Assembly (NCBI GenBank): GCA_016207685.1
Contig: JACQPE010000025.1
Location: 1 to 36,518, forward strand
Direction of reading: 5' to 3'
Source of the DNA: Elusimicrobiota bacterium
GTDB taxonomy: Bacteria; Elusimicrobiota; Elusimicrobia; JACQPE01
Length of the DNA: 36,518 bases
Shown here piece after piece: positions 1,189 to 36,518 of the stretch. Each line of letters starts with the position of its first letter. The first letter of the stretch is position 1. Below the pieces are notes generated by a model that worked only from the letters and a program-made list of their open reading frames with translations, was not told the DNA's origin and did not search any database. The translations under genes were made by a program, and so were the position numbers.

Positions 1189-1218
1189 ACCTCTCGCCCC
1201 ACACCCCTTACCCCTTGG
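1189..1218. repeat. Degenerate heptamer tract (ACCTCTC GCCCCAC ACCCCTT ACCCCTT GG) just upstream of yebC
   Basis: Period-7 repetition read directly; two exact ACCCCTT copies at 1203-1216, ending about 5 nt before the yebC ATG. Confidence 0.6.
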
Positions 1219-1222
1219 TAAT

Positions 1223-1972
1223 ATGGGCGGACATAGTCACTGGGCCGGCATTAAACACAAAAAGGGCTTGGCTGATGCCAAGAAGGGCAAGGTTTACACG
1301 AAAATCATCCGTGAAATCGTCATTGCCACCAAAGAAAGCGGGCCCAAACCAGAGAGCAATCCCCGATTGCGTAAAGCCATTGAAGACGCTCGCGCGGCCA
1401 ATATGCCTTCGGATAATATTGAGAAGGCGATTTTGCGCGGCTCCGGCAAATTGCCCGGCATTACCATTGAAGAGGTAAAGTTCGAGGGCTACGGACCGGT
1501 CGGCGTGGCCGTGATGATTGAGGGCACCACGGACAATCGTAACCGCACGACTTCCGAAATGCGCAAGATATTCAGTTCCAACGGCGGCAATTTGGCCGAG
1601 GCGGGCGCTGTTTCCTGGGTTTTTCAACAGAAAGGCTATATCGAGGTTCTGAAGGTGAAAACATCGGAAGATAAGCTCTTCGAAGCTGCTATTGAAGCCG
1701 GGGCCGAAGATGTCAAGGGCGATGAGCAGGATATTTACAAGGTGATCACCGCATCCGTTGATTTTGAGAAAGTCCGCAGAGCCATCGAGGGGGCGGGCAT
1801 TGAAACGCAGTCCGCCGAAGTGACTTACCTGCCGACCACCGAAGTCAAGGTCGAGGGTGACGACGCCGCCAAAGTCATGAAGCTCATGGAAACCCTTGAA
1901 GAGCATGACGACGTGAAAAACGTTTACGCCAACTATAACATCCCCGACGAAGTTCTCTCCAAGATTCAATAA
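1223..1972 (+). CDS. yebC: YebC/PmpR family transcriptional/translational regulator
   Basis: MGGHSHWAGIKHKKGLADAKKGKVYTKIIREI N-terminus and full-length YebC pattern. Confidence 0.97.
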   Translation: MGGHSHWAGIKHKKGLADAKKGKVYTKIIREIVIATKESGPKPESNPRLRKAIEDARAANMPSDNIEKAILRGSGKLPGITIEEVKFEGYGPVGVAVMIEGTTDNRNRTTSEMRKIFSSNGGNLAEAGAVSWVFQQKGYIEVLKVKTSEDKLFEAAIEAGAEDVKGDEQDIYKVITASVDFEKVRRAIEGAGIETQSAEVTYLPTTEVKVEGDDAAKVMKLMETLEEHDDVKNVYANYNIPDEVLSKIQ

Positions 1973-2023
1973 AAATTATCAGCATTCAGCCGCCGGCAAT
2001 CACCTGAAAAATAATTCCAAATT

Positions 2024-3574
2024 TTATTCTTCAAACGCTTCGGCGTCGAAGAGAAAAATTTCGGTTTTAGGGTCCTTCCAGCAATCGCGCGGCAAGCCGG
2101 CTTTTTGCGAACAAAGTTCCCCCAAAAATTGATTTTTATCCGGCAATGTTTCCCAAACAGAGGGCAAAAAAAGCCCTGATCGCCCCTTCTGCGTCAACAA
2201 AACACCATGACCCGAGCGGACGGCCTTGGCCGAGGCCGCCTGGCGAAAAGGGGTTAAGCGGGAAATTTCAATGGCAAGACCTGACAATTCGGAAGCCGTT
2301 ACCGGAGCAAAACGATGGTCTTCAAGAGCGCTTTTAATGGCATAAACCTGCACGGCTTCGCCCAGGGGAAGATCAGGGACCAGGCTTCCGATGCATCCCC
2401 GAAGACTGGTTTCTTTAGGCTGATTTTGACGGCGCAGAGTCACAAAAACCGCGGCGGGTTGGTTGAATTGCGGATCATCAAAAAGTTGGGGTTGAGGATC
2501 CTGGTTTTTCACGAGCTTGGAGTTAAGGGCATCGCGCGCCATTTGAACGAGACGGCGCCGCCGAATCAGATCGAGCGGTTTTTCTTTGGAAGGTTTCCTG
2601 TCGCGAATCCACAGCAAAGCCGCGTAGCCAACCACGCGCGAAGGGTCGCCGATTTTGGCCAGGCGGCCCGAGTTGGTATAGGCAAGGAGCCGTGCTTTGG
2701 GAGCGAAAGATTTGAGGGCGTAAAGCGCCGTGTTTAAGGCGGCTTCACCGCAGTAAGTGCAGACGAGGCCTTGGGGCGCGCGTTCCATGACGAGTCTATT
2801 GGCGGTGTAGAAGTAGCCAGGATCGGGATTATTCGCGAGCAGCGCCTCTATCGTTGTGCGGTCGGCAATTTCAGAGGTTTGGCGGTCGGGATAATGGGAG
2901 AGATCGGTTGAAACCAGGAGCAGAGTTTTTCGGGGTTTGCAGATGCTCGCGATCGCGGAACCGATCGCGCGGCTGACGCGCGGGTCATTCGTGTTCATGA
3001 CCAGCGGGATAATTTTGAAGTCCTTGAGCACGGTTTGGAGAAAGGGCAGCTGGACCTCGATCGAGTGCTCTTTTTCAAAAGCCGAGGGAAAATCAGCGAT
3101 GAGCGGTGACTGCGTCAGAAGTTTTTGAGCGGCCGCTTCATCAATGGGCACGGCGCCCAAAGGGGTTGTGAAGGCGCCGCTTGAAATCACGGCGGCCCCA
3201 GGAATGCCGTAGTAATGCCCTGTTCCCAAAATGATGACAGTGTCGAAATGTTTGCCTTGCAGGCGGCGGTAGACTTCGGCCGCGGTTGGGCCGGAATAAA
3301 CATATCCCGCGTGCGGGACGATGGCGCCCAGGATTTCCGCATGGGCGCCTTGAGTGGAGGCGCGGGCCAGAAAATCAGCAATCATTCGCGTCAGCGCTTC
3401 GGGATCGGACGGATAAAATGCATCCGCCACTTGCGGGGTGATGATTGCCGAATGCGAGAGGATAGGGCCCAAGAGATAGAGGACCGAACAAAGGACGGAA
3501 AATTTTTGAACCACAAGCCGCCTCATGCTTTGGACTTTATATATTTTTGCGGGGGTCATGATGAGCAAAGCCAA
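2024..3574 (-). CDS. MEMO1-AMMECR1 fusion (AmmeMemoRadiSam system proteins B and A in one polypeptide)
   Basis: N-terminal MEMO signature (GAIVPHAGYVYSGPTAAEVYRRL, STDLSHYPDRQ) and C-terminal AMMECR1 signature (LRGCIGSLVP, AVQVYAIKSALEDHRFAPV). Confidence 0.9.
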   Translation of the reverse strand: MALLIMTPAKIYKVQSMRRLVVQKFSVLCSVLYLLGPILSHSAIITPQVADAFYPSDPEALTRMIADFLARASTQGAHAEILGAIVPHAGYVYSGPTAAEVYRRLQGKHFDTVIILGTGHYYGIPGAAVISSGAFTTPLGAVPIDEAAAQKLLTQSPLIADFPSAFEKEHSIEVQLPFLQTVLKDFKIIPLVMNTNDPRVSRAIGSAIASICKPRKTLLLVSTDLSHYPDRQTSEIADRTTIEALLANNPDPGYFYTANRLVMERAPQGLVCTYCGEAALNTALYALKSFAPKARLLAYTNSGRLAKIGDPSRVVGYAALLWIRDRKPSKEKPLDLIRRRRLVQMARDALNSKLVKNQDPQPQLFDDPQFNQPAAVFVTLRRQNQPKETSLRGCIGSLVPDLPLGEAVQVYAIKSALEDHRFAPVTASELSGLAIEISRLTPFRQAASAKAVRSGHGVLLTQKGRSGLFLPSVWETLPDKNQFLGELCSQKAGLPRDCWKDPKTEIFLFDAEAFEE

Positions 3575-5600: not shown

Positions 5601-5637
5601 GTGAGCAAGTCAGACAATGTCATTTTATACGAGGTGC

Positions 5638-6858: not shown

Positions 6859-6906
6859 TTTTTTCGCCGGGTAAAACCGCGGCAGTGACTTTTGGGCAGG
6901 AAAATT

Positions 6907-6922
6907 TGGGTCTTTAGACCCA
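6907..6922. promoter_or_regulatory. Perfect inverted repeat TGGGTCT-TT-AGACCCA upstream of the metalloprotease gene
   Basis: 7-bp perfect arms, 29 nt before the ATG at 6951. Confidence 0.35.
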
Positions 6923-6950: not shown

Positions 6951-9926
6951 ATGGGCATGAAGAAAAAAATTCTATTCCGCAATTTAGTCTTTGTTTTATC
7001 GTTGTTTTTGGGAACCAGTCCCATTTTTGCGCAAGCCCCCGCGCTTGAAAGTTTATTGGGGGACATGTTTGACAGGCCGGCGGCGCTTTCAGCCAAGGAT
7101 AAGAAAATCGGTTTCCAAGAAAACGTTTCGGTTTTTGAGTCCGTAAAGAATTCTTCCGTGGGATTTGGCGGCGCGAAGGGCCCACGCGTTGCCGCAGATC
7201 AGCCGTGGGACGGCGATTTCGATTTGGATTTTTCCTGGTTGAAGGAATGGCGCGCCCTGCGCGAGAAGCGGCGCCAGAAAAAAGCGGCCCGGAATGATAC
7301 CAAAGCGGAGAAACCCTACAATCAGCTTATCAAGGGAGCCACGGCGTATGCCGGTCTATTTACTATTTATGAACATGAAAAAAATGACGGCCAAAAGAAG
7401 AAAAAATATTATTTTTTTGAAATCAAGCCTGATGAGTTAAACAAAGACTATCTCTATTCCGGGACTTTGGAGCGGGGAACGGGCTTGGGGGATGTTTTGG
7501 CAGCGCCCACCTTGTTGTCAAATTACATCATTAATTTTGTCCGTCATGATAATGAGATATGGATGATCCGGCCTTACACTAATTACCGCGCCCAGCCCGG
7601 CAGCTTGGCGGAAAAGGCCTTGGAAGAAACTTTTCAGGATTTTTCAATTGAAGCCGCGGCTCAAGTGGTTCAAGAGAATCCTCAAGACGGGCGCGTCTTG
7701 GTTGATTTGAGCGATTTATTTTTGGCTGATCTGGAAAGCCTTGCCGATGCATTAAAACGGACTCATTCGGAAGGTATTTTTGGCGCCAATTTTATCCTGG
7801 ATGGCCAGCGAAGTTCTTTTGAAAAAACTGAAGCGTTCCCTATGAATGATGAAATTTTGGTTAATTTAGTTTTTATGGTCAATGGCGATGTTGATTCGCC
7901 CCAGATGCCCCAGTCTCAATCCGTTCAATTGATGGCCCGCTACAGTCTTTCCGCCATGCCGGAGGAGGGCTTTGAGCCGCGCGCGGCTGATTCCAGGGTT
8001 GGGTATTTTTCAGAAATCTATAAAGATTTGACTGATCCCGCGAATCCGAAACCCGATATTTCCCTTATTGATCATTGGCGGCTGGAGAAATCCGATCCAT
8101 CTTTAGAGCGAGCGCCCGTTAAAAACCCCATCGTGTATTATTTGGATGATAACATTCCGCCCAAATACAAAGAGTACATTCGAGCCGGAATTTTAGGATG
8201 GAACAAAGCCTTTGAGCAGGCCGGCCTTTGGGGCGCGATCGAGGTGCGCGACCGGCCTCAAGACGCTGATTGGCAGCCCGGGGACATTCGCTATAACATG
8301 GTTTATTGGATTTTGGGCCATGCGCCTCGCGCCGGTTATGGCCCGAGCAGGGTCAATCCTTTAACCGGAGAGATTTATAACGCCTCCATTTCAATCAGCG
8401 CGGATGTGGTGCGATATCTGGGCAGTAATCAAATTGATTATTTCGAGTCAGCCGGCGCCCTGCGCGGCACCGTCCCGGAGGTTCGGGAGCCGTGGAGCGC
8501 CGCAGGTGCGAGTGGAGATGCGGGCGCCGGATCGGGTTTCAAGGGACCCGTGGACGCCGGCATTGGTTCCCAGAGAAGTCTAAGGCCGCAAGGAAGCTCC
8601 GGTGCAGGGGCGTTGGATAAACTCAATTCTCATGCCCTAGCCTTAAGCCTGGCTGCGCTTGAGGCGTCCGGATCGTTCACTCCGGAGGACCGCGAGCGCT
8701 TTATTGGGGAGTATATGGCGTGGCTGTCAGCTCATGAGTTTGGCCATGAATTGGGGCTGCACCACAATTTTTACGGCAGCGCTATGCTCACTCCGGAGGA
8801 GTTGGCAAGCGGCAGCCACGATATTTTATATTCCTCCGTAATGGATTATCCGGGCGCTAATATCGGGCCCAATGGCGAGCCGCGCGGACCTTTCTTTCAG
8901 AGCGCGGTTGGCCCTTATGATTATTGGGCAATTGAATACGGGTATAAACCCTTGCAGGGTGACGCCGAGGCGCAATCCGCGGCGCTGGCTCAAATCGCGG
9001 CCAAGGCCGATGCCAACGACAATTTGAGGTGGTCTTACAATCCCTTTGACATTGATCCTCGGGCGACGTGGTTTGATTTGGGAACGGATCCGTTTGCTTT
9101 CAGGCGCGAGCGTCAGGAGTTGGCTTCCCAGGTGATTGCCAAAATGGCCCGGAGCGTTCCTGCGACAGGGGAGGATTTTTCCGAGTATCGAAAAAATTTT
9201 CTCATGGCTGCGAATGAATATGATCAGACCATTTTTACCGCCGGCCGCTACCTGGTGGGTGTGCATCGCAAAACCGGCAACTCGACCGGAGACGCCAGCC
9301 GCCTCCCCTATGTCCCCGCTTCGGTCCCAGAACAGCGGGAGGCCTTGGCATTGATCAATGAGTATGTTTTTAAGGAGGGGGCCTTGAATTTTCCGCCGGA
9401 GGTTTTGGCTAATTTGGGACCAGTGGGTTCAACATTGGAGAATCCATATCCTGACAGTGAGCCGATCTTTGCGCGCTTAGGCGTTCAGACGCTCCAGAAT
9501 TATGCGCTTGAAATGATTTTCGGCCCGATGACCTTGCTGTTCATTGAAAACAATCAAACCCTGGCCAAGCCAGGTGAAACCATGACCATGGCCGGCGTTT
9601 TTGAGACCACGCATGGCTATGTTTGGGGGGAGCTTGGCGTGCGCCAAGTGGCCATCAGTCCCAATCGTGAGTCGCTGCAACAGATGCATATTGAGCGCAT
9701 GATCGGGCTCTTGGGCAATAATCCCAATTTGCCTTCTTTTGTTCAGTCCGAGCAGCAGTCATTGGCGCGCCATGAGCTTTTGCAGCTCAATGACCAAATC
9801 GGCAAAGCGCTTTCGATTCCCGGCCGCGTCGCCGACGTTTCCACGAAAGCCCATTTGGAGCAGGCCCAGGCAAAAATAAATCAAGCATTGAACGCTTCAA
9901 TTATTAATTTAAGCCGCAGTTATTGA
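6951..9926 (+). CDS. Secreted zinc-dependent metalloprotease (DUF5117/DUF4953-like)
   Basis: AHEFGHELGLHHNF (HExxHxxGxxH) motif, signal peptide, long extracellular architecture. Confidence 0.88.
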   Translation: MGMKKKILFRNLVFVLSLFLGTSPIFAQAPALESLLGDMFDRPAALSAKDKKIGFQENVSVFESVKNSSVGFGGAKGPRVAADQPWDGDFDLDFSWLKEWRALREKRRQKKAARNDTKAEKPYNQLIKGATAYAGLFTIYEHEKNDGQKKKKYYFFEIKPDELNKDYLYSGTLERGTGLGDVLAAPTLLSNYIINFVRHDNEIWMIRPYTNYRAQPGSLAEKALEETFQDFSIEAAAQVVQENPQDGRVLVDLSDLFLADLESLADALKRTHSEGIFGANFILDGQRSSFEKTEAFPMNDEILVNLVFMVNGDVDSPQMPQSQSVQLMARYSLSAMPEEGFEPRAADSRVGYFSEIYKDLTDPANPKPDISLIDHWRLEKSDPSLERAPVKNPIVYYLDDNIPPKYKEYIRAGILGWNKAFEQAGLWGAIEVRDRPQDADWQPGDIRYNMVYWILGHAPRAGYGPSRVNPLTGEIYNASISISADVVRYLGSNQIDYFESAGALRGTVPEVREPWSAAGASGDAGAGSGFKGPVDAGIGSQRSLRPQGSSGAGALDKLNSHALALSLAALEASGSFTPEDRERFIGEYMAWLSAHEFGHELGLHHNFYGSAMLTPEELASGSHDILYSSVMDYPGANIGPNGEPRGPFFQSAVGPYDYWAIEYGYKPLQGDAEAQSAALAQIAAKADANDNLRWSYNPFDIDPRATWFDLGTDPFAFRRERQELASQVIAKMARSVPATGEDFSEYRKNFLMAANEYDQTIFTAGRYLVGVHRKTGNSTGDASRLPYVPASVPEQREALALINEYVFKEGALNFPPEVLANLGPVGSTLENPYPDSEPIFARLGVQTLQNYALEMIFGPMTLLFIENNQTLAKPGETMTMAGVFETTHGYVWGELGVRQVAISPNRESLQQMHIERMIGLLGNNPNLPSFVQSEQQSLARHELLQLNDQIGKALSIPGRVADVSTKAHLEQAQAKINQALNASIINLSRSY

Positions 9927-12043
9927 GAATTGATTTTTAGGCCGCCCTCATTGGTGATTTGAAGGGCATTTTTGGCAATATCTTCCTTGCTTAATTTTTG
10001 AATCAGCAAAGCGGCTTTATGCTCCGGGTCAAATTTTGGAAGGCCTGGTTCTTCCTGAACGAAAGAGACAATCTGTCCTTCTTCAAAAGCGCCATTCTTG
10101 GCGTTAATCGTGGCCTTTAACAATGCAGAGTAGGCATTGAAGCCGCGCAGGCTCATTTTGCCGTAGGTTTGGAAATTTCCGAGGCTATAGGCGATCAACC
10201 GGCCCTGGTATAGCTCCATGGCGCGCGGCACGTGGGGGCCGTGGCCGATCACCATGTCGGCGCCGGCATCCACCACGGCATGGGCAAAGCGCCGCAGATG
10301 GCCGCGTTTTTCATTTTCGAAAATTTCCATGGCATCCGGCAGACGCAAAGCCTGGGCGCCTTCGGCGCCGCCGTGAAAAGAAACGATGACGATATCGGCT
10401 TTGGCCGAAAGTTTTTTTATTAGTCCTTGCGCCGCCGGAATGTTTAAAACGCTGGGAAACGTTTTATCCGAATTAAAACCAAAAGCTGCCAGGGCGATCG
10501 TGGCTCCTGAAATAGAAAACCAAGCGATTTCATTTGTTTTTCCGGCATGCTTTAGACCGGCCGCATCCAGCGCCTTGATGGTTGAGGCGTAGCCTTGGGC
10601 GCCGGCATCGAGGCTGTGATTGTTGTTGGCGCTGACCACGTTAAACCCAGCGTTCACGAGGGCTGGCAGGAGCCGCGTGGGCATGACAAATTCAAAACAG
10701 CCCTTTTTGATTTTCTTTTTGGGACATTTGGCCGGAATGATGCCATCGGCCACCGGCCCTTCCAGATTGGCAAAAATAATGTCGCCTTTAAGATAGGGCT
10801 TCACTTCATCATAGAGTCCCCGGCCGTTGTTAGGCGGGATTTCCGCAGGCGCTGGAGTCAGACTGCCCAAGAGAACATCGCCAACGGCATTGATCGTCAC
10901 GGCGGCGGCATCATTTTGAGGCGATGATTTGACATGAGTTGATCGCGTTGTTTGGGCTTGCTCTACTTTTACGGTGGAGGCGACGGTTTGTTCTTGGAGC
11001 GGGATAGATTTTGGGGATTGTTCGACGTATTTCTGGGAAGCGCAGCCTGTGAGAAACAGGAAAGCGCCACAGGAGAGAGCCTTCCACCATAGTGAAGAAA
11101 AAAGATATTTATTGAGTTTTTCCGGGGCGATATAAATTGATTTTTTAGCGGATATTTTTTTTGGGGTAAATATTTTTTGCACATGAGCGTGAATTCTCCA
11201 ATGGGTGATGCTGTGGCGGAATGTTTTGCCCGGCTTTTTGGCGGGACAAGAAGGCAGGGTTTCGCAGGGAAGGCCCCAGGTATTTTTTAGAAACGGCTCT
11301 TGCGGGCCGCGTTTGGCGAGCAGCGTGCGCCCCGTGTTGTCTTGAATGATGCGGATGAAGAGCTCGAGGTGTTGAGCGGCTTTGGGTTCAGGCTCAAGCG
11401 GATGGATTCCTTGGGTGATGCAAAATTGTCTGATGGGGCACAAGGAGCATTTGGGCTCGCGCGCTTGGCAGATCAAGGCGCCTAACTCCATTAAGGTTTG
11501 ATTAAAAATTGAGGGGCGGACATTGGGATTAGACAGAAAAGCCTCAAGAATGCCTGTGTCTTGTGAGTTGAATATTCTTAGCAAAAGACGTTTGACATTA
11601 ACGTCCGCAAGAGGCGCGGGCGCGTCAAAAGCGATGCTGGCCACGGCCGCTGAAATATAAGGACCAAAACCCGGCAAATTGATGAGTTCTTGCGGCGTTT
11701 GGGGAAAATAGCCTTGAGCATGGATTTGGCGCGCGGCGTTCCAGAGATTAACGGCACGGTTGTTGTAGCCGAGGCCGGTCCAGGCGTTTTTGACTGTCCA
11801 CAAGGGCGCGTTGACCAGGGATTTGAGCGTAGGAAATTTTTTTAGGAAGTCCTCATAACGACGCGCGACGGTCGCCGCCGTTGTCTGCACCAGCATGAAT
11901 TCCGATACCATCACGCGGTAAGGGTCTTGGGATTTTCTCCAAGGGAGATTACGTTTGCTTTTTTGATACCAGTTGAGCAAATGCCTCAAAAATAGAGTCG
12001 GCGTCTTTTGATGATTTGCCTCTGGAATCTTCATGAATGACAT
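9920..12043 (-). CDS. mutY: MutY A/G-specific adenine glycosylase continuous with a CapA-like lipoprotein (PGA_cap metallophosphatase family)
   Basis: MutY core (VSEFMLVQTTAATVARRYEDFLKKFP, LPGFGPYISAAVASIAF, CSLCPIRQFC), NUDIX-like C-terminus, then lipobox LFLTGC and CapA motifs (NAVGDVLLGSL, GADMVIGHGPHVPRAMELYQGRLIAYSLGNF). Confidence 0.85.
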   Translation of the reverse strand: MSFMKIPEANHQKTPTLFLRHLLNWYQKSKRNLPWRKSQDPYRVMVSEFMLVQTTAATVARRYEDFLKKFPTLKSLVNAPLWTVKNAWTGLGYNNRAVNLWNAARQIHAQGYFPQTPQELINLPGFGPYISAAVASIAFDAPAPLADVNVKRLLLRIFNSQDTGILEAFLSNPNVRPSIFNQTLMELGALICQAREPKCSLCPIRQFCITQGIHPLEPEPKAAQHLELFIRIIQDNTGRTLLAKRGPQEPFLKNTWGLPCETLPSCPAKKPGKTFRHSITHWRIHAHVQKIFTPKKISAKKSIYIAPEKLNKYLFSSLWWKALSCGAFLFLTGCASQKYVEQSPKSIPLQEQTVASTVKVEQAQTTRSTHVKSSPQNDAAAVTINAVGDVLLGSLTPAPAEIPPNNGRGLYDEVKPYLKGDIIFANLEGPVADGIIPAKCPKKKIKKGCFEFVMPTRLLPALVNAGFNVVSANNNHSLDAGAQGYASTIKALDAAGLKHAGKTNEIAWFSISGATIALAAFGFNSDKTFPSVLNIPAAQGLIKKLSAKADIVIVSFHGGAEGAQALRLPDAMEIFENEKRGHLRRFAHAVVDAGADMVIGHGPHVPRAMELYQGRLIAYSLGNFQTYGKMSLRGFNAYSALLKATINAKNGAFEEGQIVSFVQEEPGLPKFDPEHKAALLIQKLSKEDIAKNALQITNEGGLKINSQ

Positions 12044-16604: not shown

Positions 16605-17152
16605 ATGGTCGTTCTGGGAATTGATCCTGGTTTTGATCGCTGCGGATGGGCGAAGATTAGGCGTCAGGGGTCAGGGGTCAGGAAAGAAGATTTTCGAATT
16701 CATTAGGCAACGGTTTTGATCTTGTTGGGTGCGGATTGATTCAAACTGAACGGGTATTGCCTCGCCCAAGGCGGCTGGAGCAGCTTTTTGACGGCATTGA
16801 AGAGACGCTAAAAATGCCGCCGGTGCCGCAAATAGTGGCTTTGGAAGAGGCGCATTTGCCGCCCAAAGGGATTCGAATTTCAAATTTAATGGGCCTGGGT
16901 GAGGCGCGCGGCGTGTTGATGTTGGCGGCTTCGCGCATTGGGGTCAATGTTGTGCCGGTGCATGCGTTGCAGGTGAAAACAACGATCACGGGCCGCTCCC
17001 AATCAACCAAACAAGACGTCGCCCGTTTCCTCCGGCATCTCATCGGAGGCGTCGGTGAATCCCTGATTGATGATACGACCGATGCCGTGGCTATCGCACT
17101 GTCCGTAGCTTTGACCCACACTAAATCTTATCTCCTAAATCCTATATCCTGA
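16605..17152 (+). CDS. ruvC: RuvC Holliday junction endonuclease, reading frame broken by a heptamer tract
   Basis: Frame A: MVVLGIDPGFDRCGWAKI; frame B: GNGFDLVGCGLIQTERVLPRPRRLEQ...ALEEAHLPPKG...DDTTDAVAIALSVA. The two are out of phase around 16659-16693. Confidence 0.88.
16663..16683. repeat. Heptamer tract GTCAGGG GTCAGGG GTCAGGA inside ruvC
   Basis: Read directly from the sequence; flanked by GAAGATT at 16652-16658 and 16686-16692. Confidence 0.85.
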
Positions 17153-19133: not shown

Positions 19134-20273
19134 ATGTTCAGTTCCCGGTTCCCCGTTCCCCGTTCCCAGTTGACGAGATATTTTGTTTTTTTCTTTTTTT
19201 TTACTTGGAACTTGGAACTTGGAACTTGGAATTCTTTTGGCGCGCAAGAGATTCGCGTTCTCATTGACCATATTGATTCCAAAGAATTTCCCTTGGATGT
19301 TCCCGAAACAGGTTTTTTAGTGACCAAGGAAAACGGCGACGTTCTCCTCAATGAATCCGGGGCATTGGCCGTATCCGAAGGCTTGATTTTTAACGCCAAC
19401 GGCGATCAAAAGCTTCACTGGCGCGGCACGCCATATCGTGGACTATTGGAGGTCGTTAAAGCGCCGGACGGCCGCCTGGCGCTCGTGAATGCCCTGGAAC
19501 TGGAGGATTATCTCCTTGGTGTTTTGCCATCGGAGATGGATACCAAAACTTGGCCGATGGAGGCCCTAAAGGCGCAGGCTGTTATTTCCCGGTCCTATGC
19601 TATTTCGATGATTGAGGCTAATCCCAAGGCGGTCTACCATGTTGGGTCTAGAGCCAACCATCAAATGTATTTTGGAGCGACTTACGAGGATGATCGCGCC
19701 AGGCAGGCCGTGGAGGAGACCAGGGGTGAAGTCATTCGAGATGATCGCGGCGCCGTGCTCGCCGGATATTTCCATTCGTGCTGCGGCGGCCGGACCGAAG
19801 ATGCGCGGCAGATTTGGTCGCAGTCGGCTTCTGAAAAACTTGTCGGCGTGAGCGATTTTGGTTCTTGTAAAATCAGCCCTCATTATGCCTGGGTGACGAG
19901 CCTGCCGGTTGAAGAGTTGGAGAGAGCGCTTGTTGAGCTAGGATTTGCGTTCGATAAGCCCATTAGGGGATTTTTGGTTGGCCGACTGACGCAAAGTTCC
20001 CGGGTTGTCAGTCTAAAGGTGATCACCAACAGCGGCCGCCTTGAAGTGCCCACGGATAAGCTGCGGCAGGTTTTAGGACCCAACTGGATTAGGTCTACAA
20101 GGATTACCGACATTAAGTTTAAAAATGGCCGGTATTTAATTTACGGCCGGGGCTGGGGCCATGGCGTGGGCCTGTGTCAATGGGGCGCTTACTCTTTGGC
20201 TTTAAAAAAGGGCTGGGATTATCAGCGCATTGTCCGGCATTATTTCCCGAAATCATCATTGAATAGGATGTAG
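19134..20273 (+). CDS. SpoIID/LytB domain protein
   Basis: LPSEMDTKTWPMEALKAQAVISRSYAI, CCGGRTED, RGWGHGVGLCQWGAYSLA. Confidence 0.93.
   Translation: MFSSRFPVPRSQLTRYFVFFFFFTWNLELGTWNSFGAQEIRVLIDHIDSKEFPLDVPETGFLVTKENGDVLLNESGALAVSEGLIFNANGDQKLHWRGTPYRGLLEVVKAPDGRLALVNALELEDYLLGVLPSEMDTKTWPMEALKAQAVISRSYAISMIEANPKAVYHVGSRANHQMYFGATYEDDRARQAVEETRGEVIRDDRGAVLAGYFHSCCGGRTEDARQIWSQSASEKLVGVSDFGSCKISPHYAWVTSLPVEELERALVELGFAFDKPIRGFLVGRLTQSSRVVSLKVITNSGRLEVPTDKLRQVLGPNWIRSTRITDIKFKNGRYLIYGRGWGHGVGLCQWGAYSLALKKGWDYQRIVRHYFPKSSLNRM
19141..19233. repeat. Paired heptamer tracts in the spoIID signal-peptide region
   Basis: GTTCCCG GTTCCCC GTTCCCC GTTCCCA (19141-19168) and ACTTGGA x4 (19203-19230, reverse strand GTTCCAA units), separated by a T-rich spacer. 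Confidence 0.85.
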
Positions 20274-23360: not shown

Positions 23361-23417
23361 AATTTTTTAATGGAACTTGCGGTTCCCGTCATCCCCTAAC
23401 CCCTATGGATAGATCAT

Positions 23418-24794
23418 TTATGAAGGATTAACCCAGGCCTGGGGATCGGGCAGCTCTTCTTCCCATGAAATGATCGCCAGCGAAATGTTGGAAACAGGGA
23501 TATTTTTGAGATTGTTATCATAATAGACGTAAATTTTTCCTGTTCCTTGCGTCCGGTCAACGGTTCCAACAACCCAGGCTGCGCCGTTGATATCGACATG
23601 ACTGGAAAAATTAAGATTTCCTCCGACATAGACGAACCCTTTAAATCCAATGTCGGTATCTGAAGCGCCGGGAACGTCGCTGACGCCATAAATAGCGCCG
23701 GCGTTCCAGGATTCGCTGCCAAAGTTAAAAGTGGAATTAACCGCGCCGAGCCCGTTGTCGGCCGGGTACTCACTGGCCAAGGCCGTATCTTGCTTTTGAT
23801 ACTCTTTCCAGGCATTGGGGGGGACACTGCCCGTGTAATTAAGAACGCTGGTGCCTGAAACGGTCATGTTGCCCCGGATGATGACGTTGCCTTTGATGCC
23901 GATCGTATCCGTGAATTCGACGTTGCCATCCCAATACCAGATTAAGTCGTTTTGCGAATTGGTGTAAGAATCGGAGTCCTCGAAATAGGGCGATGCGGCC
24001 GCTCCCGTGACCCAGGATCCCACCTTGGAATCCCAGTAGCGGTATACATTTAACGTTCCATTGGCCTCGGCCGATGAGCGCATGGTGTTAAATTGCAATA
24101 AGGGCAGATCCGGCACGTCATAATCAGACCACCACTCCACATTGTCCGTATTTGGGGGATCAAGGCCGTTTTCATCTCGCGGGTATCCGCCGTGGCCATC
24201 AACCACTTGTTTGGAAAATTTTCGGGGGAAATATCTTGATGCGGATTGACTATCTGTCATATCGAGATTTTCATGGGCGATGATCGGTCCCCAATTGATA
24301 ATGCCGAGGTGATTTTTAAGATAAAGAGTTCCTTCGGATAGGAGCGAGCTGTTGATGATGGTATTTTCGACCACGCATTCAATGGAGCGGATTTCCTTGG
24401 AGTCCAGGTCCTTGCCTTCACCGTAAATAGTGACTTGATTGGTGCTGGGACCGGAAGCAAATTTAACTCTGTAATAGCCGCCCGCCAAATCATCAAAGGT
24501 TTTGTCAAAATTGTAATTGGAGATGACGACGTTGTTAATGGCGTCGGCCCAAGACGACGTTGAAGACTTAAGCTTCCACATGCCCCGGTCAATGGCGCCT
24601 TCGGCAAGATTGTAAGCCAAAGTCGACTTTTGGATTTTGACCGATTGCCGGGTGTCTTCAAATATCCAGTTGACGATGGCGGGAACGGAAATGAGTAAAA
24701 TCATCAGACAAATGAGTATTGAAACGAGGGCAATGCCCGGAGAGTTTTGAGTTTTGAGTTTTGAGTTTTGAGTTAAGGGCAGTTTATTGATCAT
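23418..24794 (-). CDS. PilX-like prepilin/pseudopilin-associated protein
   Basis: SPGIALVSILICLMILLISVPAIVNWIFEDTRQS N-terminal helix; adjacent to two prepilin genes in the same orientation. Confidence 0.7.
   Translation of the reverse strand: MINKLPLTQNSKLKTQNSPGIALVSILICLMILLISVPAIVNWIFEDTRQSVKIQKSTLAYNLAEGAIDRGMWKLKSSTSSWADAINNVVISNYNFDKTFDDLAGGYYRVKFASGPSTNQVTIYGEGKDLDSKEIRSIECVVENTIINSSLLSEGTLYLKNHLGIINWGPIIAHENLDMTDSQSASRYFPRKFSKQVVDGHGGYPRDENGLDPPNTDNVEWWSDYDVPDLPLLQFNTMRSSAEANGTLNVYRYWDSKVGSWVTGAAASPYFEDSDSYTNSQNDLIWYWDGNVEFTDTIGIKGNVIIRGNMTVSGTSVLNYTGSVPPNAWKEYQKQDTALASEYPADNGLGAVNSTFNFGSESWNAGAIYGVSDVPGASDTDIGFKGFVYVGGNLNFSSHVDINGAAWVVGTVDRTQGTGKIYVYYDNNLKNIPVSNISLAIISWEEELPDPQAWVNPS
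24744..24774. repeat. Heptamer tract GTTTTGA x4 + GTT inside the N-terminal leader codons of the PilX-like gene
   Basis: Four exact copies; encodes LTQNSKLKTQNS on the minus strand. Confidence 0.95.
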
Positions 24795-24795: not shown

Positions 24796-25389
24796 TTAGG
24801 GATTCATCACGCGGATTTTTTCCGACGCCATGTGAATAGCCAGCTGGCGTTTGCGGATATAAATCATTTTTTCCAATGTCAGCGATACCGATATCAAAGT
24901 TAAGTCATCGGAGCGGGGGAACGCGAATACCAAATACCGGACATTTTCGCTTAATTTTTTAACATTGGTGCCGTCTTGCATGTACACAATTTTTCCTTCC
25001 TGATAAAAACGGACCGTTTGATTGTCGGCATCGGTGAAGGTCAGCCGGGAGTAATAGGGCTGGCCGCTCACTTGGTCCACAACCATGCTGGAGGCCTTGG
25101 CTTCCCTGATGTGGTGGTTGAGCATGTTCATTGTTCCCCGCGCTTCCTGCTGCATTTCAATTCGGGTGCGGTTCAAAATGAAAAATTGGTTGGCTTGCAG
25201 CAGGAGCTCATTGATGACGAGCACGATCATTCCCATGATTGCGACAACGATTGCCAGTTCTACGAGAGTGAAGCCGGAAGAGTTGCGCGTTGCGCGTTGC
25301 GCGTTGCGCAACCCTGAACTCGCAACCCGGAGTGACGTCCCTGGCGCCATGAGCTTTGCGAACGGCCGCAACCCGCGTTTTTTGTTCAT
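24796..25389 (-). CDS. Type IV prepilin/pseudopilin (PilW-like)
   Basis: Class III leader SSGFTLVELAIVVAIMGMIVLVINELLLQ. The start at 25389 follows the upstream stop. Confidence 0.8.
   Translation of the reverse strand: MNKKRGLRPFAKLMAPGTSLRVASSGLRNAQRATRNSSGFTLVELAIVVAIMGMIVLVINELLLQANQFFILNRTRIEMQQEARGTMNMLNHHIREAKASSMVVDQVSGQPYYSRLTFTDADNQTVRFYQEGKIVYMQDGTNVKKLSENVRYLVFAFPRSDDLTLISVSLTLEKMIYIRKRQLAIHMASEKIRVMNP
25282..25309. repeat. Heptamer tract GTTGCGC x4 inside the prepilin leader codons
   Basis: Four exact copies; partial complementary units CGCAACCC follow within about 65 nt. Confidence 0.95.
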
Positions 25390-28062: not shown

Positions 28063-28590
28063 ATGAATTTTCGCGTCGTTAGAGAATCACCCGGGCCGCC
28101 TCGACTTGGAGAAGTGACCATCGGAAACGCCGCGATGTTTCGAACGCCGATATTCATGCCGGTGGCGACGCAGGCTTCGGTCAAGGCGTTGGGTGGGGAT
28201 GACTTGAAATCCGCGGGCTCAAAAATGCTTTTGGCCAATACCTATCATTTGACGCTTCGTCCCGGTCTCCAGGTGATTCAATCGGCCGGCGGCTTGCACC
28301 GGTTTATGAATTGGGATGGAGGCCTGTTGACGGATTCCGGGGGATTTCAAGTGATGAGCCTGGCGCATTTAAGCCGCGTGCATGAAGAGGGGGTCATTTT
28401 CAAGTCGCATATTGACGGCCGGCCGCAGAAATTTACGCCGGAAAACGTCATTGACGCGCAATTGGCTTTCGGTGTGGACGCGATGACGTGCCTGGATGTT
28501 TGCTTGAGCTACCCATCGCCCAGTGATCAGATTCGGGAAGCCTTGGAACAAACTTTGCGGTGTTCCAAGAGAGCGATGGAACAATACTAA
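28063..28590 (+). CDS. tgt: Queuine/preQ1 tRNA-ribosyltransferase, N-terminal part (ends at in-frame TAA)
   Basis: FMPVATQASVKAL, LLANTYHLTLRPG, LLTDSGGFQVMSLA. Confidence 0.92.
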   Translation: MNFRVVRESPGPPRLGEVTIGNAAMFRTPIFMPVATQASVKALGGDDLKSAGSKMLLANTYHLTLRPGLQVIQSAGGLHRFMNWDGGLLTDSGGFQVMSLAHLSRVHEEGVIFKSHIDGRPQKFTPENVIDAQLAFGVDAMTCLDVCLSYPSPSDQIREALEQTLRCSKRAMEQY

Positions 28591-28594
28591 AATA

Positions 28595-28639
28595 GTTGCG
28601 GGTTGCGGGTTGCGAAACCCGCAACCCGCAACCCGCAAC
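28595..28639. repeat. Perfect 20-bp heptad hairpin (GTTGCGG units, 5-nt loop) inside tgt, followed by a T-rich stretch
   Basis: GTTGCGGGTTGCGGGTTGCG / AAACC / CGCAACCCGCAACCCGCAAC, then TTTTATTT. Confidence 0.97.
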
Positions 28640-29205
28640 TTTTATTTGGCATTTTGCAAGGTGGCTTTGATGAGAATATGCGCCGCGAGGCTGTCGGACG
28701 TATGAAAGAGATGGGATTTAACGCTTTCGCCCTGGGAGGGCTTTCCGTGGGTGAGCCCAAGGAGTTGACTTGGGCCATGACTAAGGCGACTTGTCAAGAG
28801 TTGGCCGGCGTGGATGCGCCGCGCTATCTAATGGGCGTAGGCGACCCTCTTGATTTTTGGGAAGCGTGCTCTTGCGGGATTGATTTGATGGATTGTGTTT
28901 TGCCCACTAGAAACGCGCGCAACGGACAGGCCTTGACGAGCCGTGGGAAGATTTATGTGAAAAACAGCGCTTTCCGTCAGGACCAAGGGCCGCTTGATCC
29001 GGATTGTAATTGCCTGACATGCCGGCGCTATTCGCGCAGTTATCTTTGCCATCTATATCATGCAGGAGAGCTCCTTTTGCACCGGCTTCTTTCTTTGCAT
29101 AATGTAGCTTTCATGATGCGGTTGACCGGAATGATCCAACAGGCGATTGCAGAGGATCGTTTCGATGCGGCGTATAGGGAATTTAGGAATAACTATGGCG
29201 ATTAA
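28603..29205 (+). CDS. tgt: Queuine/preQ1 tRNA-ribosyltransferase, C-terminal part (same frame, after the TAA)
   Basis: LLFGILQGGFDENMRREAV, ALGGLSVGEPKE, LMDCVLPTRNARNG, zinc-site-like CNCLTCRRYSRSYLCHLYHAGELLLHRLLSLHN. Confidence 0.9.
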   Translation: MRVAKPATRNPQLLFGILQGGFDENMRREAVGRMKEMGFNAFALGGLSVGEPKELTWAMTKATCQELAGVDAPRYLMGVGDPLDFWEACSCGIDLMDCVLPTRNARNGQALTSRGKIYVKNSAFRQDQGPLDPDCNCLTCRRYSRSYLCHLYHAGELLLHRLLSLHNVAFMMRLTGMIQQAIAEDRFDAAYREFRNNYGD

Positions 29206-31939: not shown

Positions 31940-31941
31940 AT

Positions 31942-32012
31942 GATGCGCGATGAATTTCGAATGACAAATAAAAAGGATTCCATAATTCGACATTCGAAAT
32001 TCGACACGCGAC
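31942..32012. repeat. Inverted pair of four-unit heptamer tracts downstream of secF
   Basis: Left GATGCGC GATGAAT TTCGAAT GACAAAT (31942-31969); right ATTCGAC ATTCGAA ATTCGAC ACGCGAC (31985-32012), approximate reverse complement, 15-nt spacer. Confidence 0.85.
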
Positions 32013-32033
32013 GTTATTAATGCGGTTCCCGAT

Positions 32034-32687: not shown

Positions 32688-32722
32688 GCAGTCTCCCCCT
32701 GCTTCGGGAGTCGCCGACTCCC

Positions 32723-33367: not shown

Positions 33368-33380
33368 AGCGTGCGTGGAA

Positions 33381-33456
33381 GTCTGGAGTCCAATATCATG
33401 CCAAATAAAAGATCAGAAGCGCTTTTCTTCCTGACTTTGGACTTTGGACTTTGGAC
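33381..33456. repeat. Inverted heptamer tracts upstream of waaA
   Basis: Left GTCTGGA GTCCAAT (33381-33394); right GACTTTG x3 + GAC (33433-33456), reverse strand GTCCAAA units. Confidence 0.8.
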
Positions 33457-33464
33457 ATTTTATC

Positions 33465-34778
33465 ATGATCTGGTTTCTAATCTATAACGCGCTGGTTCCT
33501 GTTCTTTTATTGGCCGCCGCGATCGCGGCTTTTTTTGTTCCTCGCGTGCGCCAATGGTGGAGCGCCTTTGGCGATCTTCGCAAGCGCAGGGAGCGTTTGG
33601 GGTCGGCCTTGCCGGCCACGGGGGCCAACTGCTGGATTCATTGTGCAAGCCTGGGCGAAGCCCGTTTGCTGGTGGTATTTTTAGAGCTTTTAAAAAAGCA
33701 GCATTCTTCGGTCAAAGTTCATGCAACGTGCATGACTGAAACCGGGGTTGAGTTTGTGAGGAAAAATTATGTGGCGCGCGGCCTTGTCAACGGGGTTTCT
33801 TTGCTGCCCATTGATTCGTGGTGGATCATGAGACGCCAGGTTGGGCTTTGGCCTAATGGGTCGCTCCTGGTCCTTACAGAAACCGAGCTTTGGCCAAATT
33901 TGATGATGGCTGCCAAAAAGCGAGGGTTTAAGATTGCTCTGATCAACGGGCATTTTTCTCAAAAGACATGGCGTTGGTTGAGCATGGCCCGCTCTTTGGC
34001 TCGAATGTTGTGGGGGACTTTTGACGTTGTCTGCGTGAGCGAGGAATCTTATAAGAGAGATTTGGCTGATTTTAGAGTGGAGAACAAGCCTATTTTGGTG
34101 ACAGGGAACATGAAATGGGACACGGCCATGCCAGCGCACGCGGCGAGTTCTGGTGTTCATGTGGCGTTAAAGCGCCGCCTGGGGTTTGAGGATGGAGATT
34201 TTTGCTGGGTTGGCGCCTCAACGCGCGAGGGGGAAGAAAAGGTTCTCTTGGATATTTATCAAAGGCTTGTGACGCGCAATAAAGGACTTAGGCTCATTTT
34301 GGCGCCGCGCCATATCGAGCGGGCCGGTGAGGTTGTGGCCATGGCTCAAAGAGCCGGATTAAATACCAGCCGATGGTCGCGCCAGAGAGAGAAAACAGCC
34401 CAGGTAACGGTTATTGATGAATTCGGTCTTTTGGGGCCGCTTTATGGCGTGGCCGATGGCGTTTTCGTTGGCGGCACGCTGGTTCCTAAAGTGGGCGGCC
34501 ACAATTTTTTGGAGCCCGCCTATTTGGGCAAGGCCATCGCCATCGGCCCTTTTATTGAAAATTTTAAAGACATTGCCCAGGAGTTCGTTGAGCAAAAAGC
34601 TATCGAAATAGTCCCCGATGGCAAAGCGCTTGAAGAGGTTCTGGGCCATTGGATTAAGGATCCCGAAGACCGCCATCAAATAGGGGAAAACGCCCGCCGC
34701 CTTTTTTCATCCCACCAAGGCGGTTCCCAGCGCACCCTTGATGCGCTTAGTGATTTATTAAAAACCCTGCCAAGCTAG
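33465..34778 (+). CDS. waaA: 3-deoxy-D-manno-octulosonic acid transferase
   Basis: WIHCASLGEARLL, TETELWPNLMMAAKKRG, VGGTLVPKVGGHNFLEPAYLGKAIAIGP. Confidence 0.94.
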   Translation: MIWFLIYNALVPVLLLAAAIAAFFVPRVRQWWSAFGDLRKRRERLGSALPATGANCWIHCASLGEARLLVVFLELLKKQHSSVKVHATCMTETGVEFVRKNYVARGLVNGVSLLPIDSWWIMRRQVGLWPNGSLLVLTETELWPNLMMAAKKRGFKIALINGHFSQKTWRWLSMARSLARMLWGTFDVVCVSEESYKRDLADFRVENKPILVTGNMKWDTAMPAHAASSGVHVALKRRLGFEDGDFCWVGASTREGEEKVLLDIYQRLVTRNKGLRLILAPRHIERAGEVVAMAQRAGLNTSRWSRQREKTAQVTVIDEFGLLGPLYGVADGVFVGGTLVPKVGGHNFLEPAYLGKAIAIGPFIENFKDIAQEFVEQKAIEIVPDGKALEEVLGHWIKDPEDRHQIGENARRLFSSHQGGSQRTLDALSDLLKTLPS

Positions 34779-34810
34779 GGGTATTATTTAGCCGGGATTC
34801 GCCCAGTTAG

Positions 34811-34885
34811 ATCGTCACTCCGGCGCAAGCCGGAGCACGGGTCCCGGCGGGGACTTGATACCGTCTTTCGCCGATATGACGGGAC
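34811..34885. repeat. REP-like palindromic intergenic element
   Basis: CTCCGGC-GCAA-GCCGGAG (34818-34835), bounded by CGTCA (34813-34817) and TGACG (34877-34881). Confidence 0.5.
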
Positions 34886-34930
34886 AAAAAAATCCTGTGG
34901 TCCCGAAGGAAGTGCCTGTCAACTGCGGAA

Positions 34931-36496
34931 TTACGGTTTAGCAGACGAGAAGGCGGTTGTTAAGATTTTCAGGGCGGCTAGTTGGGAGTTGGGGGAGTCG
35001 GAAAAAGTGGCTAGTGCCGTTAAGGTGGATGGCAATTGATTGATTGTTTCCGGGTCGCCGAAGGCGATGGCCAGAGAGGGGACACGAGGATTGACCGCAA
35101 GGGCGGCGTTAATTTTTTCGATGTCCTGTGGTTCAAGGCCGAGAACACCGGAGAAGGCGCGGGGTTTGTGAAAAATACCGATTAATAGGGGAGCCTTGGG
35201 GTAGCGCGCGTTTTGGGGTGGTTTTAAGTCAAAGCCTGATGAGGCTAGAATTTTGGCAAAAGATGGAAGATGCGCTTTATCGTGCATGGAGGCGATAAGG
35301 TGGCGCAGAGCGGGTTTGGCCTGACGCACGGCCAAACCTACGGTTTTGGCGCTCCAAAATTCGCCGCTCGGGATAAAATCAGTTTTTTTGTTGCCCACCT
35401 CAAGATATCGCAAGGGACCCGCGGGCCAGGGCAAATGGCGCGCACGGCCATGCGGCCACGCGAGGCATTCATGGGCTAATTTCAGGGCTGATTTTTGATG
35501 GATCGACTCAAGGTTCAAGAAATCGTTTGCGGCGGGCATGGCGCCGGCGGCTGAATCTTCCAGGCGACCCAGGAGACGTTCGATTCTTGTTGACGCGGCG
35601 TTAAAAATCGTTTGATCCAAGAATTTTTTCTCATAGAGACTATTGAGAGTTTTGATGGCGGACCAGGGCTCCGGCGGATAAAGCAGAATGTCGTTTCCGG
35701 CAATGAGCCCCAAGCGCAGGTAGTCTTTTTCGCTAAAATTTTGGACAATAGCGCCCATCATTAATGCGTCGGTGATGACAACGCCGCCAAAGCCCAATTT
35801 TTGGCGCAAGATGTTTTTGATCCAGCGCTCCGATAGAGAAGCCGGAAGAGAATCGATTTCGGTTTGTATCAAATGACATGACATGACCGAGCTGGCCTTT
35901 GAAATGAGGGCTCGGTAGGGCTGCCAGTCATTTTTTTCAAGCTTGGCCAGCGGCCGCTCAATGCGCGCCAACTCCAAATGAGAATCCACCCGCGTATCAC
36001 CATGACCCGGAAAGTGTTTTAGGCAGGAGGCAACTCGATTTTTTTCTAGGTTTTCCAAGAAGGCGTCCGCCAGTTTGGCGACTATTTTGGGATCGCTTCC
36101 GAAAGAGCGAATGCTAACGATGGGGTTGTCCGGCCGCGCATGCAAATCAATCACCGGCGCAAAAATCCAGTTAATGCCCAGAAGTTTGGCTTGGGCGGCT
36201 GTGATGTTGCCTTTAAGCCTGGCATTGTCAAGATTATTATTGCGGCCGATGCCCATATTGGAAACCATCTCGGTCATGTCGCTTATTTGGCTGCCCGCAC
36301 CGTTTTCAAAATCAGAGGCGAATAAGAGCGGCTTTCCGGCATGAGCGCGCAATTTTCTAGTTAGCGCGGCGACTTCGTGAGCCTTGCCGCCGTAAAGGCA
36401 GAACCCGCAAACCCCAGCGTCAATAAGTTTGATGGCTTCCTTGAGGTCATGCACCCCAAAGCGAAACGCCGGCATGATGAATCGGGAAGTGTTCAT
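34931..36496 (-). CDS. Glycoside hydrolase family 3 protein (beta-N-acetylhexosaminidase/NagZ-like)
   Basis: CLKHFPGHGDTRVDSHLELARI, VVITDALMMGAIVQNFS. Confidence 0.88.
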   Translation of the reverse strand: MNTSRFIMPAFRFGVHDLKEAIKLIDAGVCGFCLYGGKAHEVAALTRKLRAHAGKPLLFASDFENGAGSQISDMTEMVSNMGIGRNNNLDNARLKGNITAAQAKLLGINWIFAPVIDLHARPDNPIVSIRSFGSDPKIVAKLADAFLENLEKNRVASCLKHFPGHGDTRVDSHLELARIERPLAKLEKNDWQPYRALISKASSVMSCHLIQTEIDSLPASLSERWIKNILRQKLGFGGVVITDALMMGAIVQNFSEKDYLRLGLIAGNDILLYPPEPWSAIKTLNSLYEKKFLDQTIFNAASTRIERLLGRLEDSAAGAMPAANDFLNLESIHQKSALKLAHECLAWPHGRARHLPWPAGPLRYLEVGNKKTDFIPSGEFWSAKTVGLAVRQAKPALRHLIASMHDKAHLPSFAKILASSGFDLKPPQNARYPKAPLLIGIFHKPRAFSGVLGLEPQDIEKINAALAVNPRVPSLAIAFGDPETINQLPSTLTALATFSDSPNSQLAALKILTTAFSSAKP

Positions 36497-36504
36497 GGAA
36501 AAAA

Positions 36505-36518
36505 GTTCCAAGTTCCAA
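36505..36518. repeat. Heptamer tract GTTCCAA x2 (cut by the window end) upstream of the GH3 gene
   Basis: Two exact copies; same heptamer as the right arm at spoIID. Confidence 0.75.

Follow-up and report, generated by a model that had tools for sequence, protein, structure and literature searches.

The heptameric repeats of the window

Heptameric tandem repeats recur in unrelated bacteria and have no accepted explanation. The question raised by the present stretch of Elusimicrobiota DNA (36,518 nucleotides, contig JACQPE010000025.1, the whole of which is called the window here) is what these repeats are, given that their unit length is constant and their unit sequence varies from locus to locus. 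The window has eight exact arrays of period 7 with 2.8 units or more, compared to 0.0 in shuffled sequence, and among periods 4 to 15 no other shows a comparable excess. When 80 stretches of the same assembly (G000, a metagenome-type draft of 202 contigs) were sampled, giving 73 usable sequences that include the window and amount to 761 kb, there were 57 arrays of period 7 with 2.5 units or more, compared to none after shuffling; 37 arrays had at least 3 units and 23 had at least 4. The numbers of arrays with periods 5, 6, 8, and 9 were 15, 17, 2, and 0, respectively. The period-7 pattern is thereby confirmed as real and genome-wide. An earlier note on this DNA had described dispersed tandem heptamers of constant length and variable sequence, and the density check that it set beforehand, against shuffles and against periods 5, 6, and 8, came out in favour of that description. 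By extrapolation, the genome would hold a few hundred elements.

The tendency of the units to fit GTYNNNN, also claimed earlier, was borne out, as GTY/RAC units made up 57 of 68 arrays compared to 36.4% of random genomic 7-mers (p about 1e-15) and 24 of 32 distinct units (p about 1e-5). The commonest units in the 761 kb were GTTCCAA, GCGAGTT, and GTCCAAA, which are without G-tracts. Units without stop codons were not enriched genome-wide (43/68 compared to 60.6%). That the arrays come from faulty assembly or binning is exceedingly improbable: the source is a single draft and contig ends are rich in arrays (6/137 compared to 1.3 expected), but arrays also lie inside contigs with unique flanks, orthologous sites of an independent assembly hold arrays with other units, and arrays occur in many genomes of the phylum too.

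Table 1. Heptameric arrays and inverted pairs found in the window
Feature	Position	Strand	Remarks
Weak array (CACCCCTTACCCCTT)	1189..1218	.	directly 5' of yebC start (ATG 1223)
GTCAGGG array, RuvC variable loop (ATG 16605)	16663..16682	.	strong
Imperfect CTAAATC array, ruvC-ruvA junction	17121..17150	.	
Complete element: GTTCCCS x4, T-rich centre, TTGGAAC arm	19139..19234	+	exact arrays 19148-19167, 19203-19231
Weak array	23394-23407		
AAAACTC x4, N-terminal leader of minus-strand gene (MINKLPLTQNSKLKTQNSPGIALVSILICLMILLIS)	24740..24777	-	exact 24742-24774
GCGCAAC x4, makes up prepilin leader (RNAQRATRNSSGFTLVELAIVVA)	25279..25311	-	exact 25282-25309
Inverted pair GTTGCGG x3 / AACCCGC x3, tgt variable loop	28593..28641	+	exact 28595-28614, 28616-28639
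Degenerate inverted pair (TTCGAAT type), junction of secF and next gene	31942..32012	.	weak, 31985-32006
Inverted pair, degenerate GTCTGGA GTCCAAT / GACTTTG x3.4, 5' of waaA-like gene	33374..33458	+	exact 33433-33456
AAGTTCC array, 5' of beta-N-acetylhexosaminidase-like gene	36503..36518	.	runs off contig end

Most of the loci listed in the earlier note are strong, whereas the one at the ruvC-ruvA junction is imperfect and those at yebC, beside secF, and at 23394-23407 are weak (Table 1). At yebC the exact stretch is only 14 nt (1203-1216, two units), and the relatives G001 and G002 have no array there. In a SpoIID-like protein (MFSSRFPVPRSQLTRYFVFFFFFTWNLELGTWNSFGAQEIRVL) the signal-peptide region is encoded by the complete element at 19139..19234; a 9-mer array occupies this site in G001, and in G002 the signal peptide is an ordinary one. 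An inverted pair of period 8 stands at the ruvC-ruvA junction of G001. The pair beside secF is missing from G001, G002, and G003, and the pair 5' of the waaA-like gene is an insertion, since this gene and its upstream neighbour abut or overlap in all three. The AAGTTCC array is continued as a full inward pair in contig C140, which shares a 65-nt overlap. A scan of the window for RNA families found none.

The pair in tgt forms a nearly perfect hairpin and has an in-frame TAA 5' of it (28588-28590), and in ruvC as assembled the gene halves flanking the array are in different frames. The latter is what would be seen at a phase-variable contingency locus, where gain or loss of units (7 = 1 mod 3) toggles a gene, and one unit more or two fewer would join the ruvC frames. 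Nevertheless, we regard such switching as very improbable because the majority of elements lie between genes or leave the frame intact, their sites include ribosomal and housekeeping operons and not surface genes, and tgt is broken by the stop 5' of its array and not by unit number. Phase variation as a general role, which had been suggested by analogy, is unsupported.

Architecture of the element

Most of the tracts belong to one stereotyped element, in which inverted heptad arms surround a purine-to-T-rich centre. The typical left arm has up to four GTYNNNN heptads and sometimes a partial fifth, the centre is 30-65 nt and passes from purine-rich to T-rich, and the right arm has 2-4 NNNNRAC heptads. 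The folded element is a long hairpin, about 85-115 nt, with GTY outermost. The stems are about 20-30 pairs and the mean z of folding is -3.9. The inverted layout reported for the window holds: among 21 close pairs found by a relaxed search, 20 point inward with GTY outermost, one is parallel, and none points outward. The arm units within a pair match at 5.9 of 7 positions compared to 4.96 (permutation p 0.0002); gap lengths of the close pairs had no preference modulo 7. The typical arm has four heptads, and no arm is longer than about 33 nt. Counted as anchored heptads per array, there were 188 arrays of two units (168 in the shuffle), 18 of three, 33 of four, 13 of five, and none of six or more. 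Judging by the 65-nt overlap between contigs, the assembly k was probably near 65, and therefore arrays of 5-8 units, if present, should have assembled. Unlike ordinary MITEs, the copies have no common consensus except the heptad frame, and the unit varies by locus.

Position of the elements and their absence from relatives

The elements were found at 47 of 446 same-direction junctions, at one of 49 divergent junctions, and at none of 59 convergent junctions; a general role as transcription terminators was rejected because of this last count. One genome sample is the basis of the element search, the junction counts, and the polarity test; the samples of other genomes, which are small and sparse, agree with it. 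The sites are stop-to-start gaps, often in ribosomal operons, the leaders of signal peptides and prepilins, and variable protein loops. The position at gene starts had been noted correctly from the window, whereas location within essential genes turned out to be rare: gene interiors hold 13 of 99 arrays compared to 73.5 expected, some of the 13 being signal-peptide arrays, and the true in-gene cases of the window are the Tgt and RuvC loops. An N-terminal hydrophobic stretch was found in 23 of 46 array genes compared to 29%. The upstream stop has ATGA at 17 of 46 array junctions, 24 of 194 other spaced junctions, and 42 of 107 overlapping ones (p 0.0002); such a distribution would be expected from the filling and duplication of stop-start overlaps. 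A general test for target-site duplication by the longest common substring of the flanks was not significant (p 0.053).

The comparison of orthologous loci showed elements to be missing or different in G001, G002, and G003. The gaps rpsQ-rplN, rplN-rplX, and rplX-rplE are 130, 109, and 145 nt in G000, 4, 37, and -4 nt in G002, and 0, 4, and 8 nt in G003. Hairpins lie at rpsG-fusA, tuf-rpsJ, and rpsJ-rplC in G000 (110, 133, and 96) and in G001 (107, 99, and 117), where G002 has gaps of 6, 3, and 7, and at rpsL-rpsG in G000 and G001 (96), with none in G002 (41). Thus, whole insertions of about 95-145 bp stand at junctions measuring 0-40 nt in relatives, and it is because of these empty junctions, which are expected of an insertion element, that we consider the elements insertions. 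G000 and G001 have hairpins at many shared junctions with quite different units, and at several orthologous sites the hairpins of a sister genus have other units, 8-mers and 9-mers among them. In the spc operon two copies have a common 110-bp stretch with one difference, and their left arms differ. In a search of 235 genomes of the class for GTTC-type pairs, 8 genomes together had about 99 overlapping matches to the inward form, and 3 other genomes had 3 matches to the outward form; inward pairs also occur beyond the class (for example, arms of GTTCAGA x4 in G338). Unit sequence, and in the sister genus also unit length, therefore varies by locus and genome, and the layout recurs. GTTCCAA x4 was found on only two virus contigs, which is no evidence for a viral source.

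Plain microsatellite slippage, in which period 7 is favoured (the polymerase-footprint idea that has been cited for heptamers) and is tolerated at weakly constrained sites, would account for the homogeneity of the arrays and their depletion in gene interiors, and an excess of heptamers is known from many bacteria (cited in PMC4692102). It does not predict that arrays peak at four units and stop at five, that polarity is fixed and the arms match, that whole insertions stand at empty junctions, or that only tandem junctions are favoured. Local slippage as proposed in the earlier note is therefore incomplete, and as the sole cause it is disfavoured and, in our judgement, improbable.

A functional role in RNA is possible although doubtful. 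The hairpins would separate adjacent cistrons of one mRNA or tune their expression, as processing sites for a double-strand RNase, through stabilisation, or because they control translational coupling and re-initiation, with the stem selected and the sequence free. This is consistent with the stem lengths, the near-exclusive use of same-direction junctions, the occupation of identical junctions in G000 and G001 by quite different units, and the enrichment on two ribosomal-protein contigs (8/22 compared to 31/331, p 0.001; the two contigs were chosen post hoc), and the TAACTGA repeats of Beggiatoaceae, just 5' of starts, have been proposed as post-transcriptional sites (PMC4679880). On the other hand, about 90% of same-direction junctions are empty, the close relatives G002 and G003 lack hairpins at the corresponding junctions, and copies lie in the Tgt and RuvC loops and in signal-peptide codons, where RNA cleavage would be harmful. 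The shared junctions of G000 and G001 and the ribosomal enrichment could mean selection for function, a counterpoint to selfish spread.

Comparison with known repeats

The STRR heptanucleotides of filamentous cyanobacteria, rightly named earlier as analogues, are tandem heptamers, intergenic and lineage-specific, with few fixed motifs, unlike the variable units here; to our knowledge, four-unit inverted arms have not been described for them. The earlier note gave no named family that matches, but there is a close analogue in the GGGAATC / GGGGA(C/T)T repeats of Xanthomonas and Nostoc (Rehm et al. 2015; PMC4692102). In Xanthomonas these are dispersed, mostly intergenic 7-bp tandems, mostly of four units per array, with 70-75 convergent inverted pairs per genome, all of which resembles the elements here, and their length and sequence too vary among species. 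Each Xanthomonas genome has one G-rich motif, and the four-unit preference was tied to G-quadruplex formation (PMC4692102), which cannot be the general reason because units such as GTTCCAA, GTTGCGA, or GTCCAAA have no G-tracts and yet peak at four. The elements here are, in addition, tied to same-direction junctions and signal peptides.

The TAACTGA direct repeats of marine Beggiatoaceae, cyanobacteria, and some Bacteroidetes (MacGregor 2015; PMC4679880) read GTTATCA on the opposite strand and so fit GTYNNNN, and as here they lie just 5' of start codons with AAC on the sense strand. They differ in having one fixed sequence, which was not among the units of our genome sample, and almost no inverted pairs (1 indirect beside 169 direct sets; PMC4679880). 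In the Omega (ribbon-helix-helix) parS site of plasmid pSM19035, unspaced 7-bp heptads are bound as direct or convergent pairs and at least 4 contiguous heptads are needed for full activity (PMC9499535), but this is a plasmid partition site with a single consensus; a search of 41 genomes for the Omega family gave no match, though as a weak test, since no control genome gave a match either. The Bacillus tandem repeats of constant length and variable sequence share this property with ours, with units of 52 or 20-21 nt, and inverted pairing is not reported in the parts of that paper considered here (Subirana and Messeguer 2021; PMC8161180).

In REPINs the replicative unit is an inverted doublet that forms a hairpin, singlets being remnants (Bertels and Rainey 2011; PMC3116915). 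Such a doublet is found here, but the conserved consensus and the linked RAYT transposase of REPs are not (one of three Y1 loci inspected). G000 has Y1 (RAYT-like) transposases, but Y1 numbers are not correlated with the arrays, and no array lies within 1.5 kb of the one Y1 locus that was inspected; no mobility gene was identified.

Probable origin and meaning

The most likely explanation is a mobile or copied hairpin family. In its fuller form, that the heptamers are arms of a dispersed palindromic element copied within the genome and mostly selfish or near-neutral, we hold it with about even confidence. The spreading unit would be the inverted doublet, copied via hairpin or single-stranded DNA or RNA at co-transcribed junctions. 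Its arms would then alter fast through slippage and hairpin-templated correction, which would keep them homogeneous and complementary, and copies would survive at sites able to absorb them, namely stop-start gaps, leader peptides, and loops. Since 7 is not divisible by 3, all three frames of a strand read an array as an identical cyclic 7-residue peptide, which would make co-option as a leader peptide easier. A tentative and rather unlikely proposal is that a previously undescribed process of DNA writing or transposition makes inverted arms, each with about four tandem copies of some 7- to 9-nt word of the locus and the GT side outward, and places them in the stop-start junctions of transcribed operons; it would also lie behind the Xanthomonas, cyanobacterial, and Beggiatoaceae heptamer tetrads, for which separate explanations have been given.

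The fixed layout (four units, inward pair, co-transcribed junction) together with free sequence argues against slippage alone and against G-quadruplexes as the general reason for such repeats. If hairpin doublets are the spreading unit, scattered 'microsatellites' become one class of small insertion elements, and the leader peptides would illustrate how such elements may be reused as protein export signals. For annotation it means that element sequence makes up many of the gene starts and stop-start gaps of these genomes.

Period-7 arrays and the anatomy of the element

The window is contig C180 of the G000 assembly, a 2.37 Mb draft in 202 contigs that is 90% complete, and in a comparison of one protein, SecD, this genome clustered with Endomicrobium and class relatives, separate from Omnitrophota and Desulfuromonadales, which makes it most likely a lineage of Elusimicrobiota. 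The window contained 8 exact arrays of period 7 with 2.8 units or more compared to 0.0 in shuffles, and in a 761-kb sample of G000 57 arrays reached 2.5 units and 23 of these reached 4, whereas its shuffle had none; periods other than 7 were at the shuffled level or near it. In this sample 57 of 68 arrays had GTY/RAC units (GTT or GTC, or the complement) compared to 36% expected. The dispersed heptamer arrays and their GTY tendency, both described in an earlier note, are thus confirmed.

When adjoining arrays are considered jointly they are a single kind of element. The left arm has up to 4 heptads starting GTT or GTC, frequently followed by a partial fifth, and the right arm has 2-4 heptads ending in AAC or GAC. 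In most cases the centre spans 30-65 nt. Purines prevail in its left half (mean 62%) and the right half is rich in T (55%), a pattern seen in 18 of 18 elements. Among 21 close pairs, 20 were inward (GTY outermost), one was parallel and none was outward. Units of paired arms agreed at 5.9 of 7 positions compared to 4.96 in unpaired arms (p 0.0002), and the elements fold into long hairpins (mean z -3.9). Two anchored heptads were found in 188 arrays (168 by chance), three in 18, four in 33, five in 13 and more in none. This upper limit is probably not caused by assembly. The right end of the window, where the assembly broke within a heptad element, shares a 65-nt overlap with contig C140, which implies an assembly k near 65; with such a k, arrays with 5-8 units would be expected to assemble. 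Contig ends are rich in arrays (6/137 compared to 1.3 expected), and therefore longer arrays may be absent from the assembly in places. Arrays in another genome, G089, reach 80-115 nt, which shows that the four-unit limit is not universal.

Positions of features referred to in the text (L-numbers are sequence stretches other than the window)
Feature	Sequence	Position
SpoIID-like protein with array in N-terminal stretch	window	19134
MTKGSRFKVPGSRMGRKRAALFIGFFWFLTWNLELGTLNAGAAERK, example of N-terminal-array gene	L170	4575
Array-encoded prepilin leader, ending RNAQRATRNSSG then FTLVELAIVVA	window	~25.3 kb
Signal peptide of G001 SpoIID-like protein, 9-mer tandem array MKVFSASLASLASLASLAFPLEAQ, >4 repeats	L114	5391-5436
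ruvC	window	16605-17152
tgt	window	28063-29205
In-frame TAA in tgt	window	28588-28590
Overlap of window end with C140	window; L076	36454-36518; 1-65
42-nt higher-order repeat, IMG/VR viral contig	L235	1180-1360

Position relative to genes

A home-made hexamer model called 630 genes, with 90.7% of the sequence coding; its starts are approximate, its stops sound. The position at gene starts proposed earlier was upheld, as 70 of 99 arrays were close to starts (16.6 expected); arrays inside genes, also proposed, do occur (13/99) but are far rarer than the 73.5 expected. Arrays were present at 47 of 446 same-direction junctions, 0 of 59 convergent and 1 of 49 divergent ones (Fisher p 0.0004; per intergenic base p 1e-7), and we therefore reject terminators and promoters, respectively, as a general role. 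Two ribosomal-operon contigs, both picked post hoc, were enriched (8/22 compared to 31/331, p 0.001).

An array lay in the N-terminal open stretch of 46 genes, 23 of which have a signal-like hydrophobic stretch compared to 29% of other genes (p 0.003). Sense-strand arms encode basic, KFQVPSS-like peptides upstream of the hydrophobic core and TWNLELG-like peptides downstream; as 7 is not divisible by 3, an array reads as one and the same cyclic peptide in every frame of a strand.

Junctions and loops in relatives

In the spc operon the rpsQ-rplN, rplN-rplX and rplX-rplE gaps were 130, 109 and 145 nt in G000, 4, 37 and -4 in G002, and 0, 4 and 8 in G003; in G001 they were 1, 110 and 78, with units differing from those of G000. 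The G028 spc operon has two hairpins. In the str/S10 region both G000 and G001 carry hairpins, with very unlike words, at rpsL-rpsG, rpsG-fusA, tuf-rpsJ and rpsJ-rplC, where the G002 gaps are 41, 6, 3 and 7, figures that are upper limits where alignment-derived starts fall within the gene; no array was seen in this region of G003. Upstream of the waaA-like gene the window has an inverted pair, and in relatives the two genes abut or overlap. In the loop of Tgt, G000 and G003 carry paired heptads, G002 has an ordinary loop and G001 has a period-8 pair. G001 thus keeps the same plan using 8-mers and, in the SpoIID leader, 9-mers in more than four copies. Judged from these empty sites, the elements are insertions and not merely expansions of repeats. 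Other palindromic insertions, of the GAGGTCTGACCCC type, occur in other families at rplN-rplX (G016, L242) and rplX-rplE (G008, L244).

In tgt the TAA lies just 5' of the hairpin, across which the frame is preserved, and the assembled gene seems to be split or inactive. In the assembled ruvC the parts on either side of a GTCAGGG array lie in different frames; the loop is intact in G001 and G002. Elsewhere in the window, at 9920-12043, a single 707-aa ORF combines a MutY-like HhH-GPD/NUDIX part with a PGA_cap domain.

The main rival explanation is that the hairpins are functional intercistronic RNA elements, for which the bias to same-direction junctions and the junctions with hairpins common to G000 and G001 speak. 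However, copies also occur in coding loops and some relatives are without hairpins, and we regard this explanation as possible but rather unlikely.

Distribution and known systems

Among 235 class genomes, inward GTTC-type pairs gave 23 matches in G000, 42 in G013, 16 in G170, 6 in G022 and smaller numbers in four others, where overlapping matches of one element are scored separately and the sole G209 match and one in G089 resemble coding sequence. Outward pairs gave 3 matches, every one in genomes other than these. Inward pairs also occur in other classes of the phylum, notably in G338 (GTTCAGA x4). A further heptad family, anchored differently (TTGNNNN x4), gives 427 matches in G028, 193 on one strand and 234 on the other, and each 42-nt unit of the viral repeat contains three to four GTTCCAA heptads.

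Of the known systems, the GGGAATC heptamers of Xanthomonas come closest. They are mostly of four units, with 70-75 convergent pairs per genome, and their preference for four was linked by the authors to quadruplex formation (PMC4692102); G000 has the four-unit peak too, but its commonest units are without G-tracts. TAACTGA repeats (PMC4679880) match GTYNNNN when read on the opposite strand; like the G000 elements, they precede start codons, in the same orientation. REPINs (PMC3116915) are likewise inverted doublets, but their copies have a conserved sequence, unlike those in G000. No transposase linked to the elements was found at the one of three Y1 loci inspected, which had no array within 1.5 kb.

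Proposed copying within the genome

ATGA was found at the upstream stop in 17 of 46 array junctions, 42 of 107 overlapping junctions and 24 of 194 other spaced junctions (p 0.0002), the excess expected if an overlapping stop-start site had been filled and the overlap duplicated. Over 110 bp, two elements of the spc operon are almost the same. Their left arms differ: an identical change is present in both adjacent heptads, and one copy has extra heptads. This points to copying inside the genome and a later concerted change of the arm. Local slippage, suggested earlier as the source of the arrays, does not by itself account for whole insertions at junctions that are narrow in G002 and G003.

The best supported explanation, to which we give about an even chance, is a hairpin doublet that spreads by copying or moving. 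The analysis establishes the anatomy, polarity and positions of the elements, the empty sites and one copied pair; how copies are made, the duplication of the target and the balance of selfish and useful copies are inferred. The doublet would be copied or moved within the genome, its arms would then turn over fast, and copies would be tolerated at co-transcribed junctions, in leaders and in loops.
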